Assembly: GCA_003554145.1 (NCBI GenBank)
Contig: PWFS01000062.1
Coordinates: forward strand, 1 to 51,796
From: Halobacteroidaceae bacterium
GTDB taxonomy: Bacteria > Bacillota > Halanaerobiia > B1SED10-174
Reading direction: 5' to 3'
DNA length: 51,796 bases
In this document: piece by piece, positions 2,737 to 49,487 of the stretch
Layout: each line of letters opens with the position of its first letter
Position numbering within the stretch: the stretch's first letter is position 1
The notes under the pieces: generated by a model
Databases searched by the model: none
Seen by the model: the letters and a program-made list of their open reading frames with translations, nothing else
What the model was told of the DNA's origin: nothing
Position numbers and translations under genes: made by a program

Positions 2737-3519
2737 ATGGAAAACCTATTGCAGAAAACCCGGCAGTTAAACAATCTTTTGCTGGGGGGAGCAGGAAAGG
2801 CAGTTAGTTTTAAAGAAATGGCCAGTGTTTTGAGTGAAGCCATGGATGCCAATGTTTATGTAATCAGCAAAAAAGGGAAAGTCCTGGGCCATCAACTCCT
2901 GGATCAATTTGAATGTGAAAAAATGATGGAAGAAGTGCTGGAAAAAAAACAATTTCCTGCAGATTTTAATGAAAAATTGTTGGGAATAAATGAAACCCGG
3001 GCTAACATCCAGCAGGAAGATGGTAAGTGTGTTTTTGAATTTCAGGGAGACTGTATTTTTACAACCAAGGTAACAACGGTAGTTCCGGTTAAAGGTGCCG
3101 GGGCTCGATTGGGCACCCTTATCCTGGCCAGATTCAGAAACAATTTTGAGGCAGGAGATTTAATTCTGGCCGAATATGCTGCTGCAGTAGTTGGCATGGA
3201 AATACTGCGATCCCGCAGTGAAAAAATGGAGGAAAAAGCCCGGCGTAAGGCCGCAGTACAGATGGCTTTGGACAGCCTTTCTTTTTCGGAAATGGAAGCG
3301 GTGGAGCATATTTTTGCGGAACTGGATCAAAAAGAAGGTTTGATTGTGGCCAGCAAAATTGCCGATGGAGCTGGAATTACCCGGTCAGTAATTGTTAATG
3401 CCCTGCGAAAATTTGAAAGTGCCGGGGTTATCGAGTCCCGGTCCCTGGGAATGAAAGGAACCTACATTAAAGTTTTAAATGAGTTTTTGCTGGAGGAAAT
3501 TGAAAAGATTGATCTTTAG
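2737..3519 (+). CDS. codY: CodY, GTP- and branched-chain amino acid-sensing repressor
   Basis: Global nutritional regulator of Bacillota. The 260-residue length is typical. The N-terminal GAF-like sensor domain (to about residue 155) is followed by a winged helix whose recognition part reads ASKIADGAGITRSVIVNALR and then FESAGVIESRSLGMKGTYI, both highly conserved. An AAAGGAGG ribosome site lies 10 bases upstream of the ATG. It follows hslU, as in Bacillus, with a 117-base spacer that shows no clear terminator or promoter. Confidence 0.96.
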   Translation: MENLLQKTRQLNNLLLGGAGKAVSFKEMASVLSEAMDANVYVISKKGKVLGHQLLDQFECEKMMEEVLEKKQFPADFNEKLLGINETRANIQQEDGKCVFEFQGDCIFTTKVTTVVPVKGAGARLGTLILARFRNNFEAGDLILAEYAAAVVGMEILRSRSEKMEEKARRKAAVQMALDSLSFSEMEAVEHIFAELDQKEGLIVASKIADGAGITRSVIVNALRKFESAGVIESRSLGMKGTYIKVLNEFLLEEIEKIDL

Positions 3520-3544: not shown

Positions 3545-4189
3545 ATGGTCAATCCAATAGACAAGTTGACTCCTTTTCAAATTGATGCCCTGCGAGAGCT
3601 TGGGAATATTGGGGCGGGTAATACCGCTACCGCTCTGGCCCAGTTTCTGGAAAGAGAAATCCACATGGAAGTCCCTGCTGCTCGCATCCTGCCCCTGGAG
3701 GAAGTGCCCCAGATTATGGGGGTAGAAGAGCGGCGGGTGGGATGCGTACTGCTGCGGATACTCGGAGAAGCTCCGGGGAAAATGGTTTTTTTGATTGAAG
3801 AAGAGTGCCTGCGCCGGTTGTTAACCCTGGTTTTTGGGGAAGAACCTGATGACCTGGAGGGGGAACTGGAAAGGTCTGCCCTCCAGGAAATAGCGAATAT
3901 TCTCTCGGGCTCTTTTCTTAACTCTATTAATAAGATGACCGGTTTAAGTTGCGTACAGTCATTACCCAATTATGCCATGGATATGGCCGAGGCCATCCTT
4001 AGTTCAATTGCTGCTTATCAAGGGCAGTTTGGAGATCACGTTTTATTCCTGGAAACTTCTTTTTCTGAAGGCGATAATCAAATTTTTAGCAAGTTTTTTC
4101 TTATTCCCGAACCAGGAAGTCTGGAGCAGATCCTGGAAGCAATTGGAGCTGAATCTGATGAGCAAGATAATTCCGGTCCGAATGGGTGA
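3545..4189 (+). CDS. cheC: CheC, CheY-P phosphatase
   Basis: CheC dephosphorylates CheY-P and binds CheD in Bacillus-type chemotaxis. The 214-residue protein keeps both active-site motifs of the family, each of the form D/S-x3-E-x2-N followed about 23 residues later by Pro: D14/E18/N21/P44 (within ELGNIGAGNTATALA) and S111/E115/N118/P141. It should therefore be catalytically competent. GGAAGGAG lies just upstream of the ATG. It overlaps cheD by 32 bases. In Bacillus this pair ends the large fla/che operon between codY and rpsB; here it stands alone. Confidence 0.95.
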   Translation: MVNPIDKLTPFQIDALRELGNIGAGNTATALAQFLEREIHMEVPAARILPLEEVPQIMGVEERRVGCVLLRILGEAPGKMVFLIEEECLRRLLTLVFGEEPDDLEGELERSALQEIANILSGSFLNSINKMTGLSCVQSLPNYAMDMAEAILSSIAAYQGQFGDHVLFLETSFSEGDNQIFSKFFLIPEPGSLEQILEAIGAESDEQDNSGPNG

Positions 4190-4646
4190 ATTAAAAATAG
4201 ATAAAAAACCACAAAAACTGGGGTGTAATGGCCTGGGTTCCTGTATTGGCCTGATAATTTATGATGAGTTCAGGAAAATAGGGGGGCTGGCCCATATAAT
4301 ATTGCCCACAGGAAGAAAAAACGGAAATAATGAACAGAAACCAGGGAAATATGCGGACCTGGCTATTCCCCATTTAATTGAAGAACTGGGGTCAGCGGGA
4401 GCCCATCCACGCCGTTTATGGGCAAAAATGGCCGGGGGAGCCCACATGTTTTCCCTGGAATCAGATAATGATATCAGCCGCATAGGAGAACGCAATATTG
4501 AAGCAGTTCGGGAGATATTAAAACAGTACAAAATACCGGTAAAAGCCATGGATGTGGGAGGGAAATCCGGAAGAACAATTGTTTTTTATCTCAGCTCGGG
4601 AGAGTTAAAAATTAAAACCTTTCAAAAAGGTGAGAAAACATTATAA
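4158..4646 (+). CDS. cheD: CheD, chemoreceptor glutamine deamidase
   Basis: CheD deamidates receptor glutamines and activates CheC. Of the family catalytic residues, Cys29 (in GLGSCIGLIIYD) and His46 (in GLAHIILP) are present. The 162-residue length from the ATG at 4158 is normal for the family. A longer in-frame extension starting at 3972 lies wholly inside cheC and is rejected. The chosen ATG has GGAGC eight bases upstream and overlaps the end of cheC by 32 bases, so translation is probably coupled. GGAHMF and GGKSGRTI are further family motifs. Confidence 0.94.
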   Translation: MSKIIPVRMGELKIDKKPQKLGCNGLGSCIGLIIYDEFRKIGGLAHIILPTGRKNGNNEQKPGKYADLAIPHLIEELGSAGAHPRRLWAKMAGGAHMFSLESDNDISRIGERNIEAVREILKQYKIPVKAMDVGGKSGRTIVFYLSSGELKIKTFQKGEKTL

Positions 4647-4801: not shown

Positions 4802-5605
4802 ATGGCAGTGGTTACAATGAAACAGCTGCTGGAATCGGGTGTTCACTTCGGACATCAGACCCGGCGGTGGAATCCCAAGATGAAACCCTATATTTTTACC
4901 GAGCGTAACGGGATATACATCGTCGATCTGCAGCAAACGGTTAAAATGGTTGAGGTGGCCCATAATTTTGTGCGGGACCTGGCCATGGAGGGTAAGGAAG
5001 TTCTTTTCGTGGGAACCAAGAAGCAAGCCCAGGAAACAGTAAAAAAAGAAGCGGAAAGATGTGGCATGCCCTATGTAAATCAGCGCTGGCTGGGGGGGAT
5101 GCTGACCAACTTTGCCACAATAAGTAAACGGATCCGTCGGCTGGAGGAACTGGAAAAAATGGATGAGGAGGGACTGTTTGAAGTCCTCCCTAAGAAAGAA
5201 GTAATTCAACTGCAAAAAGAAAAAGAACGCCTGAACCGTTTCCTGGGAGGAATTCGCCACATGAAAAGGTTACCCCATGCGGTTTACGTGGTGGACCCCC
5301 GCAAGGAAAGTATTGCAGTTGCTGAAGCAAATAAGCTGGGAATCCCGGTGGTTGCAATTGTTGACACTAACTGTGACCCCGATGTAATTGATTATATTAT
5401 TCCGGGTAATGATGATGCTATTCGAGCAGTTAAGCTCTTAACTGGAGTAATGGCTGATGCTGTATTAGAGGGTAATCAAGGGCGGGAAGTTCAAATGCCC
5501 GAAACCGATGAAGAAGTAGAAGCCGGAGAAGAGAGCTCTGTGGAGGGTGAAAAGGACCTGGAAGAGTTAAAAAAAGAAACTAATGAACAGGAAAAAGCTG
5601 AATAA
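4802..5605 (+). CDS. rpsB: 30S ribosomal protein S2
   Basis: Primary S2 protein of the small subunit. The N-terminus [22 protein letters not shown] is cut here to its key part [15 protein letters not shown], and [17 protein letters not shown] plus [11 protein letters not shown] are diagnostic. Its 267 residues exceed the usual core because of an acidic, Glu-rich C-terminal tail of about 40 residues. GAGAGGAGG lies 11 bases upstream of the ATG. It is transcribed with tsf, 15 bases downstream. Confidence 0.97.
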
Positions 5606-47026: not shown

Positions 47027-47504
47027 AAAAAGATATTAGTAAGCAAAAAAGATTACCCCCGGGGGTAATGTTCATCCCATTTAATTAATGCTATATTGTA
47101 ACTGATAAGAGCAAATGCGTTTGTTTCCCGCAAAAGTGTATTCTGGGGTTGTAATTTGCATTAGGTGAAGGAGGTTTAAATTGAGAGAGGAATATATTTA
47201 ATTAAGGGAATGGAGTTCAGTTAATGGCTTATACTTAAACCTGGCAATTTGAATAATACTTTAAATGAAAAGGAAAAAGTTGGTTCTGGATAAAGTGTTT
47301 TGATCTCTTTTTTTTCCAGAAAAAAGTATTTGTGTTAAAAAAAAGGTGAGGAATAAAAGTTTGAAAAAGGGAGGGAGCTTACTAAGGCCCGAGGTTTGAT
47401 CATTAAAGATTTTGATACTGTTTTTAAAACGGAAAAATAAACTGGGAAATCGGCGGATTTTTCTCTTTCTTATTTTTAATTTCCAACAAAAAAGGGGGCT
47501 AAAA
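47027..47504. other. AT-rich gene-free region with short translated-looking remnants
   Basis: No ORF of useful size. It holds the palindrome at 47052-47069 and an extended -10 after it. Two good ribosome sites lead only to tiny frames: GAAGGAGG before TTG 47180 (6 codons) and AAGGTGAGG before TTG 47361 (12 codons, to 47399). These may be remnants of a lost gene or leader peptides. The rest looks unstructured. Confidence 0.5.
47052..47069. promoter_or_regulatory. Perfect 18-base palindrome, candidate operator
   Basis: ATTACCCCCGGGGGTAAT is fully symmetric. A C-tract/G-tract flanked by TA/AT resembles operators of CsoR/CstR-type copper or persulfide repressors, but without their usual central spacer. 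It ends 20 bases before an extended -10 (TGCTATATT, 47089-47097), which would place it over or just upstream of a -35. No such repressor is encoded in the window. Confidence 0.5.
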
Positions 47505-48008
47505 ATGAAAAAAGAAATGGTTATAGTCGTTCTGATCCTGATCTTCTTGGTTTCCTTATCTTCAGCAGCGGAAGCCAGGTTTTATATTGGGGGTATGTAT
47601 GCCCGGCAACTGGAACATGATGCTCCGGGCACCAGCTGGCTGGGGATAACCCTTCGTTCTCTGGGAAATGGTCTTTTTGGCTCCGACCTTGATTTCCGCT
47701 TTCATTCTGGGGATTATATGGGAGAAGACTATTTTATCTTAAGAATCAATCCCTTTCTCCATTTAAATTTAAAACTGGGACAATTAAACTTATATGGAGG
47801 TATCAGTCCCTTTACAGTTCAGTACCTATCCTATGGCGAAGGGGAATGGGAGTTTGATTTTCACCTTTTTTATGCAAAAGCTGGCGCCCAATACGATTTT
47901 GGTCCACTGGGAGTTTTTGCCCATGGGCTCAATCGTCTGGAACTTGATGATATTGAGGGGTCTTTACGGCAAATGGGGCTGGAATTTGGTGCGGCCTTTG
48001 GATTTTAA
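47505..48008 (+). CDS. Small exported protein, probable outer-membrane beta-barrel
   Basis: I do not recognise a family. The 167-residue protein has a clear signal peptide (hydrophobic core VIVVLILIFLVSLSSAAEA, cleavage near residue 24). The mature part alternates polar and non-polar residues in short stretches separated by turns (YIGGMYARQ, LDFRFHSGDY, FDFHLFYAKAGAQYDFG), as beta-barrels do, and ends in AAFGF with a terminal Phe, typical of outer-membrane proteins. ATG 47505 follows AAAGGGGG; a longer frame from 47412 has no ribosome site. Confidence 0.65.
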   Translation: MKKEMVIVVLILIFLVSLSSAAEARFYIGGMYARQLEHDAPGTSWLGITLRSLGNGLFGSDLDFRFHSGDYMGEDYFILRINPFLHLNLKLGQLNLYGGISPFTVQYLSYGEGEWEFDFHLFYAKAGAQYDFGPLGVFAHGLNRLELDDIEGSLRQMGLEFGAAFGF

Positions 48009-48095
48009 GAATTAGCCGGGGAAATAGTTTACAAAGTAAGAATTCCCCCTGGTATTTATCTATTTGGGGCTATGGACACAACAGGAGGGGTGGAA

Positions 48096-48485
48096 TTGGC
48101 CAAAAAGGATTTTAAAATTCTGTATTGTGATGATTCTTTGCTGGTTCGTAAACAGCTAAAGGAAATTTTGAACCAGGAGGGCTACACAAACCTTATAGAA
48201 GCCGCAGATGGTGAAGAAGTCGTAAAGAAGTACCAAAGCGAAAACCCTGATCTTGTTTTCTGTGATATTGTTATGCCTCGTCTGGATGGGTTGGAAGCTT
48301 TAAACAGGATTAAAGCCCGGGATCAGTCTGCCCGGATAGTAATGATTTCAACATCGGGGACCAGAGCTAACCTGATCAGGGCCCTGGATGAGGGAGCGGT
48401 GGATTTTGTGCAAAAACCCTTAAATCCGGAAAGGGTAAAAAAAATTGTTGCTCGGGAAATCAAAGGAGGCAGGGGCCTTGTTTAG
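48096..48485 (+). CDS. Single-domain response regulator (CheY-like)
   Basis: A 129-residue receiver with the acidic pair Asp12/Asp13 (LYCDDS), phospho-acceptor Asp57 (LVFCDIVMPRLDG), the Ser/Thr of VMISTSG and Lys107 in FVQKPL, so it should be phosphorylated. There is no output domain. I chose TTG 48096, 5 bases after AGGAGGGG; ATG 48072 and GTG 48090 lie before or in that site. Its stop is overlapped by 8 bases with the next gene, a putative CheX-like phosphatase, making a functional pair likely. No histidine kinase is nearby. Confidence 0.9.
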   Translation: MAKKDFKILYCDDSLLVRKQLKEILNQEGYTNLIEAADGEEVVKKYQSENPDLVFCDIVMPRLDGLEALNRIKARDQSARIVMISTSGTRANLIRALDEGAVDFVQKPLNPERVKKIVAREIKGGRGLV

Positions 48486-49341
48486 TCAATACCTGGGGAG
48501 CTATCTTTTGCGCAGGGAATTAATTTCTGCGGAAGAGCTGGGCTCATTATTAAAAAAGGAAAAAGAGCACCGAATAAAGCTGGGAGTTCTGGCCATTGAC
48601 CGGGGCTATATGACTGTAGATCAGGTTGAGGAGATCCATGCCCAGCAGAAAAAAATTGATCGCAGATTCGGAGAACTGGCAATAGATAAGGGTTATCTTA
48701 CTTCTTCAGCCCTGGAAAAATTGTTAACTGAACAGAAGGAGGCCCATGTTTCCCTGAGTGAGATTCTGTTGGATGAAGGATATTTTTCCCTGGCAGAAAT
48801 AGAAAAAATTGTTCGGGAGTACAAAGAGGATGCGGGCATATCTGATAGAGATATCAGAAGTTTACAGGAAGGCGATGTAGCAATTGCTGTTGATAGGTTA
48901 GTGGAGTTTAATAAAGCAGATGAGTTTTTTCGAAATTATGTCATCCTGTTTTTACGGAATTTAATCCGATTTGTTGACCCTCGCTCCCGAATTTTGAGTT
49001 CCCAGGAAAAAATAGAGATCCCCAAGGGGCTTGTTATTGAACAGGCAATCCGGGGAGAAGTTGATATTAATACTGCTGTAATGATTGATAGCAGGGATGC
49101 GGGTGAAATAGCTTCTCGTTTTAGCCGCCGGGATATTTCTTCTCCCGATCCCCTGATTTCGGAAACACTTAAAGAGCTTTTGAACCTACATAACGGGTTG
49201 TTTGCGGTTAATCTATCCAACCAAGGTGTTGAAGTTAATCTTAACCCTCCCGAGATTGCCCAGCAGGCCCCCTATAAATTTAGTGAGGAAATTGAGTTTC
49301 GAACCTCGGTGGGGGATATTAAGTTATTCCTTGGAAGCTGA
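48478..49341 (+). CDS. Four MshEN-like repeats fused to a CheX-like phosphatase domain
   Basis: 287 residues from TTG 48478, which has AAAGGAGG 8 bases upstream. The N-terminal 116 residues are four repeats with an exact 29-residue period (LG/FG/LS at 6, 35, 64 and 93). Repeats 2 and 3 keep the MshEN pattern, with Gly43/Gly72 at position 10 and Gln57/Gln86 at position 24; the 24+5 spacing equals the cyclic-di-GMP-binding MshEN motif. From about 165 the chain looks like CheX, with the active-site form E233-x2-N236 and Pro258. It likely acts on the overlapping CheY; cyclic-di-GMP binding is inferred. Confidence 0.7.
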   Translation: MFSQYLGSYLLRRELISAEELGSLLKKEKEHRIKLGVLAIDRGYMTVDQVEEIHAQQKKIDRRFGELAIDKGYLTSSALEKLLTEQKEAHVSLSEILLDEGYFSLAEIEKIVREYKEDAGISDRDIRSLQEGDVAIAVDRLVEFNKADEFFRNYVILFLRNLIRFVDPRSRILSSQEKIEIPKGLVIEQAIRGEVDINTAVMIDSRDAGEIASRFSRRDISSPDPLISETLKELLNLHNGLFAVNLSNQGVEVNLNPPEIAQQAPYKFSEEIEFRTSVGDIKLFLGS

Positions 49342-49411: not shown

Positions 49412-49487
49412 TGGAGCTGGCGACCGGATTCGAACCGGTTACCTGGTGATTACAAGTCACCTGCTCTACCGTTTGAGCTACGCCAGC
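49412..49487 (-). tRNA. tRNA-Thr (anticodon UGU)
   Basis: Read on the minus strand from 49487, the 76 bases fold as a cloverleaf. GCTGGCG pairs with CGCCAGC in the acceptor stem, the anticodon loop is CTTGTAA with anticodon TGT (reads ACA), and the T-arm loop is TTCGAAT. The discriminator is T and CCA is encoded. All parts are intact. Confidence 0.95.

Follow-up and report, generated by a model that had tools for sequence, protein, structure and literature searches.

The CheC and CheD protein families are known and their structures have been solved. At about 15 outgroup Bacillota loci, including those of Brevibacillus, Alkaliphilus, Geosporobacter and Tepidibacter, the corresponding genes belong to the end, cheC-cheD-sigD-fapA-rpsB, of the flagellar and chemotaxis (fla/che) operon. 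The published CheC-CheD interface involves a Met-Phe pair of CheD and an Asp residue of CheC (PMC3513319), and in Bacillus subtilis CheC it is D149 that binds CheD (PMC3513319). The third member of the CheD triad in Thermotoga maritima is Thr21, and NTAN1 has a Ser at the equivalent place (PMC7022378).

The window, by which we mean the whole stretch of 51,796 nucleotides analysed here, is contig C128 of a Halanaerobiales-type metagenome-assembled genome (MAG; hereafter referred to as G000) of 2.1 Mb, with 259 contigs and 94% completeness. Its nearest named relatives are the Halanaerobiales MAGs Halobacteroidaceae bacterium T1Sed10_148 (L135) and Halanaerobiales bacterium B1Sed10_174 (L136). 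In the window, codY, cheC, cheD and rpsB directly follow one another, and the interval between positions 3519 and 4802 contains no flagellar gene. Pfam matches and gene order thus confirmed the initial annotation, in which cheC and cheD had been placed alone between codY and rpsB:

2737..3519, plus strand: codY, left flank of the site (Pfam CodY, 4.8e-61; HTH_CodY, 2.6e-29)
3545..4189, plus strand: cheC, CheC/FliY/CheX family, putative CheY-P phosphatase (Pfam CheC, PF04509, 4.1e-22, two stretches)
4158..4646, plus strand: cheD, predicted member of the receptor glutamine deamidase family (Pfam CheD, PF03975, 5.9e-36)
4802..5605, plus strand: rpsB, right flank of the site (identified as ribosomal protein S2 from its sequence; tsf-pyrH-frr come next)

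The genes hslV and hslU lie upstream of codY, and further housekeeping genes are found beyond frr. The order codY-cheC-cheD recurs in the four other genomes of the genus and is therefore due neither to chance nor to misassembly. The most likely start of cheD is the ATG at position 4158, rather than the start of the open reading frame at position 3972, and the Cys29/His46 numbering is then that of the initial annotation. The gap between codY and cheC is only 25 nt long and contains a ribosome-binding-like AGGAAGGAG, cheC and cheD share 32 nt, and rpsB follows cheD after 155 nt; given this spacing, cheC and cheD are probably co-transcribed with codY, in place of SigD control. Promoter and terminator scans at the site yielded nothing above chance, and an Rfam search there returned no RNA element.

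The isolation of cheC and cheD at this site is explained by the presence of the flagellar genes elsewhere in the genome. With concatenated proteins of G001, a member of the same genus, as the query, matches were obtained for FliM, FlgG, FlgE, MotA, the neighbouring phosphoglucose isomerase gene and hpf. The contigs concerned, with genes named by similarity to G001 and by eye, are as follows:

C31: flgB-flgC-fliE-fliF-fliG-fliH-fliI-fliJ
C77 and C96 (two variants): fliK-flgD-flgE-motA
C90: fliM-fliY-fliO-fliP-fliQ-fliR-flhB, the contig ending inside flhB
C173: fapA-like-flgF-flgG-flgA, the contig ending inside the fapA-like gene
C162: flgA-flgH-flgI-flgJ-...-sigH-hpf-secA-prfB

The order of the flagellar genes over these contigs is that of a single piece in G001, and more than 20 of them are present as open frames in this syntenic order. 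The flagellar cluster exists and has been broken up by assembly. FlhA, SigD and flagellin had no match in this fragmented, 94% complete assembly, a pattern that could also reflect a recent loss of flagella in this lineage, with the che genes on their way out or reused. Flagellar loss was initially read from the absence of flagellin and FlhA, but this reading was dropped once FliM, FlgG, FlgE and MotA had been found on other contigs, and we consider it very unlikely. Given the ends of contigs C90 and C173, the expected place of flhA, flhF and sigD is the assembly gap between these two contigs. Moreover, FlhA and flagellin are present in the genus members G001-G004, and in G001 and G003 the flagellin genes form multi-copy arrays on a separate contig, a type of sequence that short-read assembly tends to lose. 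The parallel versions of fliK-flgD-flgE-motA in one bin (L089, G000:C77; L090, G000:C96) suggest that strains were mixed in the assembly, and strain mixing breaks assemblies. The gaps at contig ends and the gene content of the close relatives make a working flagellum likely, and illustrate that flagella have not necessarily been lost when an operon is missing from a fragmented metagenome bin.

The other chemotaxis genes were also found outside the window. The genes cheW-cheA-cheY-cheY are on contig C27, in the neighbourhood that they also have in G001 and G002, cheB-cheR is on contig C14, and two chemoreceptor fragments are present in the genome. The genome has one CheA, one CheB and one CheR, the cheD of the window is its single copy, and all members of the Bacillus-type chemotaxis set (CheA, CheW, CheY, CheB, CheR, receptors, CheC and CheD) are represented. 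On the basis of C27, C14, the receptors and the single cheD, the genes in the window are the CheC-CheD part of one complete chemotaxis system.

The initial annotation had proposed, as one of two possibilities, that the pair had a job apart from flagellar chemotaxis, and had pointed to a CheY/CheX-like pair at 48 kb as a potential partner. The first gene of that pair (48072-48485) does encode a response regulator, but the CheX-like assignment of the second (48445-49341) did not hold: no CheX match was detected in its protein, which gave only a weak, below cut-off Pfam match to DUF4388. A search of five other family members (G001-G005), in all of which the che block at the codY-rpsB site is identical to or larger than that of the window, gave no match to this DUF4388-like gene, and other genes occupy the equivalent region in G001 and G002. 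The gene was either gained here or lost elsewhere, and is not a conserved partner of cheC-cheD; in view of its absence from five relatives and the lack of a CheX match, we rejected the partnership originally suggested. Within the window, positions 47412-49341 comprise a protein without a Pfam match, the response regulator and the DUF4388-like protein, next to a tRNA gene (49415-49487, minus strand). Retention of cheC and cheD for some non-flagellar pathway after the departure of the operon, be it one involving the 48-kb response regulator or type IV pili, would fit their physical separation from the flagellar genes and the occurrence on the same contig of a response regulator with a protein once taken for CheX-like. 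We nonetheless hold it to be very unlikely, because the single CheA, CheB and CheR leave no second chemosensory core among the genes found, and the sister genus has cheC and cheD in one block with cheY, cheA and cheW. A role outside flagellar chemotaxis also gains no support from the receptors, the flagellar cluster and the lack of any other cheD.

The two proteins retain the features expected of their families. Both active sites of CheC (ExxN; E18/N21 and E115/N118) and Cys29 and His46 of CheD are intact, as initially reported. In an 11-sequence alignment, D146 of CheC is invariant and is the likely counterpart, assigned by eye, of B. subtilis D149. C29, H46, M97 and F98 are invariant in the CheD alignment, M97-F98 being the counterpart, again assigned by eye, of the published M101/F102 pair for CheC/receptor binding. 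The third triad residue was not covered by the initial annotation: it is Cys23 rather than Thr. This position is occupied by Cys in all five members of the genus and by Ser in the sister genus; the loci examined yielded 107 distinct CheD cores, of which 88 have Thr, 11 Ser, 5 Cys and 3 Val. As the Ser of NTAN1 indicates that the position varies in active relatives, Cys23 alone does not exclude membership of the CheD family, and we regard it as a small testable oddity.

In comparisons of this genome with the other genus members, dN/dS was 0.08-0.09 for cheC and 0.12-0.15 for cheD, values that are rough because synonymous sites are near saturation; those for codY and cheA were about 0.06 where computable. 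Both cheC and cheD are under purifying selection. This is difficult to reconcile with the pair being a decaying relic without function, as might be supposed from its stranded position and from the cheD of G004 (L043, G004:C39, 1500-2160, minus strand), in which an extra G in a homopolymer shifts the C-terminal frame. That frameshift may be a sequencing error or a sign of early decay; cheC and cheD are intact in G000-G003, the Cys/His, ExxN and contact residues are kept, and there is no second cheD to take over, such that decay is, in our opinion, extremely improbable. The genome thus has no further cheC-cheD pair accompanying the moved operon, of which the window pair might have been a degenerating duplicate.

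Comparison of the locus in related genomes revealed four arrangements, from the full operon to cheC-cheD only:

State A, codY, full fla/che operon, cheC-cheD-sigD-fapA, rpsB: G007 (family f3) and G013 (f6; stretch read up to fapA)
State B, codY-cheY-cheA-cheW-cheC-cheD-rpsB: the sister genus (G005) and members of f2, f4, f5, f8 and f9 (genomes G005, G008, G009, G011, G016, G018, G022, G026, G034, G039 and G049)
State C, codY-cheW-cheC-cheD-rpsB: G043 and G044
State D, codY-cheC-cheD: all five genomes of the genus (G000-G004), with rpsB next in four and the G003 contig ending just past cheD

At the state B site of G036, cheY was not detected. Among the genomes with state B, C or D, those checked (f1, f2, f4, f5, f8 and f9) have the flagellar cluster next to flgG/H/I/J-sigH-hpf, usually followed by secA-prfB; in members of the genus, this cluster and the codY-cheC-cheD site are on different contigs. 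In the state A genomes, flgF-flgG-flgH-flgI-flgJ form a group apart from the main operon, and none of sigH, hpf and secA was seen in the flanking sequence retrieved. The shared derived neighbourhood of flgG/H/I/J-sigH-hpf favours a single relocation. However, in a concatenated protein tree based on eight markers, with weak backbone support and an unstable outgroup (G080), the full-operon families f3 and f6 were placed within the reduced-site group at a low support value (48), and the AU test mildly rejected a single relocation with f3 and f6 outside the rest (p = 0.026, from a number of replicates that the program itself flagged as too small). One relocation or several may therefore have occurred. 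The direction, which rests on the outgroups, appears to be from state A to state B and then to state D. At L104, L109 and L121, from some members of the class (f2 genus g9 and G006, f7), cheC-cheD-cheY directly precedes flgB, and the che genes sit with the flagellar cluster, away from rpsB. A literature search of limited extent turned up no report on the codY-cheC-cheD-rpsB arrangement.

Gene content, gene order, purifying selection and conserved residues together argue strongly that the pair represents the adaptation module (CheC-CheD) of a Bacillus-type chemotaxis system that is complete in other respects, very probably stranded by genome rearrangement. The other possibility raised in the initial annotation, that the operon had moved and left the pair behind, is supported by the flagellar genes elsewhere in this genome and by relatives with either the full operon (G007 and G013) or a che block and the shared second flagellar site. 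In an ancestor, the flagellar structural operon would have left the codY-rpsB interval and joined flgFGAHIJ beside sigH-hpf-secA, with cheYAWCD remaining behind codY; in this genus, cheW-cheA-cheY would later have moved to a further site, or been replaced there, leaving cheC and cheD alone. The module most likely has the function known for it in B. subtilis, serving swimming chemotaxis. By analogy with that species, CheD would bind receptors, deamidate their glutamines and raise CheA activity, CheC would dephosphorylate CheY-P and, at high CheY-P levels, draw CheD off the receptors, and CheY would act on the flagellar switch. The Thr-to-Cys change in the active site of CheD in this genus and a presumed shift of cheC and cheD to hslVU-codY transcription, away from SigD, might instead mean that CheD is mainly a receptor-binding adaptor and less a deamidase, and that the levels of CheC and CheD follow nutrient (CodY) status and not flagellar assembly, a proposal that we consider unlikely. 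The significance of the locus as the stranded module of a moved operon is modest and lies in operon history: the Halanaerobiales provide a stepwise natural record of the breakup of the Bacillota fla/che operon, from the full operon to a che block and then to cheC-cheD.

With respect to the described systems, this CheC-CheD module is of the ordinary kind, and it is the operon that has eroded. The two ExxN sites, the Cys and His of CheD and the interface Met-Phe and Asp are as in the CheC-CheD of B. subtilis and T. maritima (PDB 2F9Z), whereas the triad Thr of CheD is Cys in this genus. The cheC-cheD order and the rpsB-tsf-pyrH-frr right flank are common to this site and to the Bacillota fla/che operon ending in cheC-cheD-sigD (Brevibacillus, L202; Alkaliphilus, L195; Geosporobacter, L199), and the codY left flank is that of the full operon in the class members G007 and G013, but here the codY-rpsB interval lacks all flagellar genes, cheA, cheW, cheY and sigD. 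Another close counterpart is the codY-cheY-cheA-cheW-cheC-cheD-rpsB block of other Halanaerobiales (G005, MAG B1Sed10_174, L136; G009, L208), which has the same site, order and orientation and, as here, a flagellar cluster elsewhere; in that block, cheY, cheA and cheW have stayed at the site, whereas here they are at another locus.
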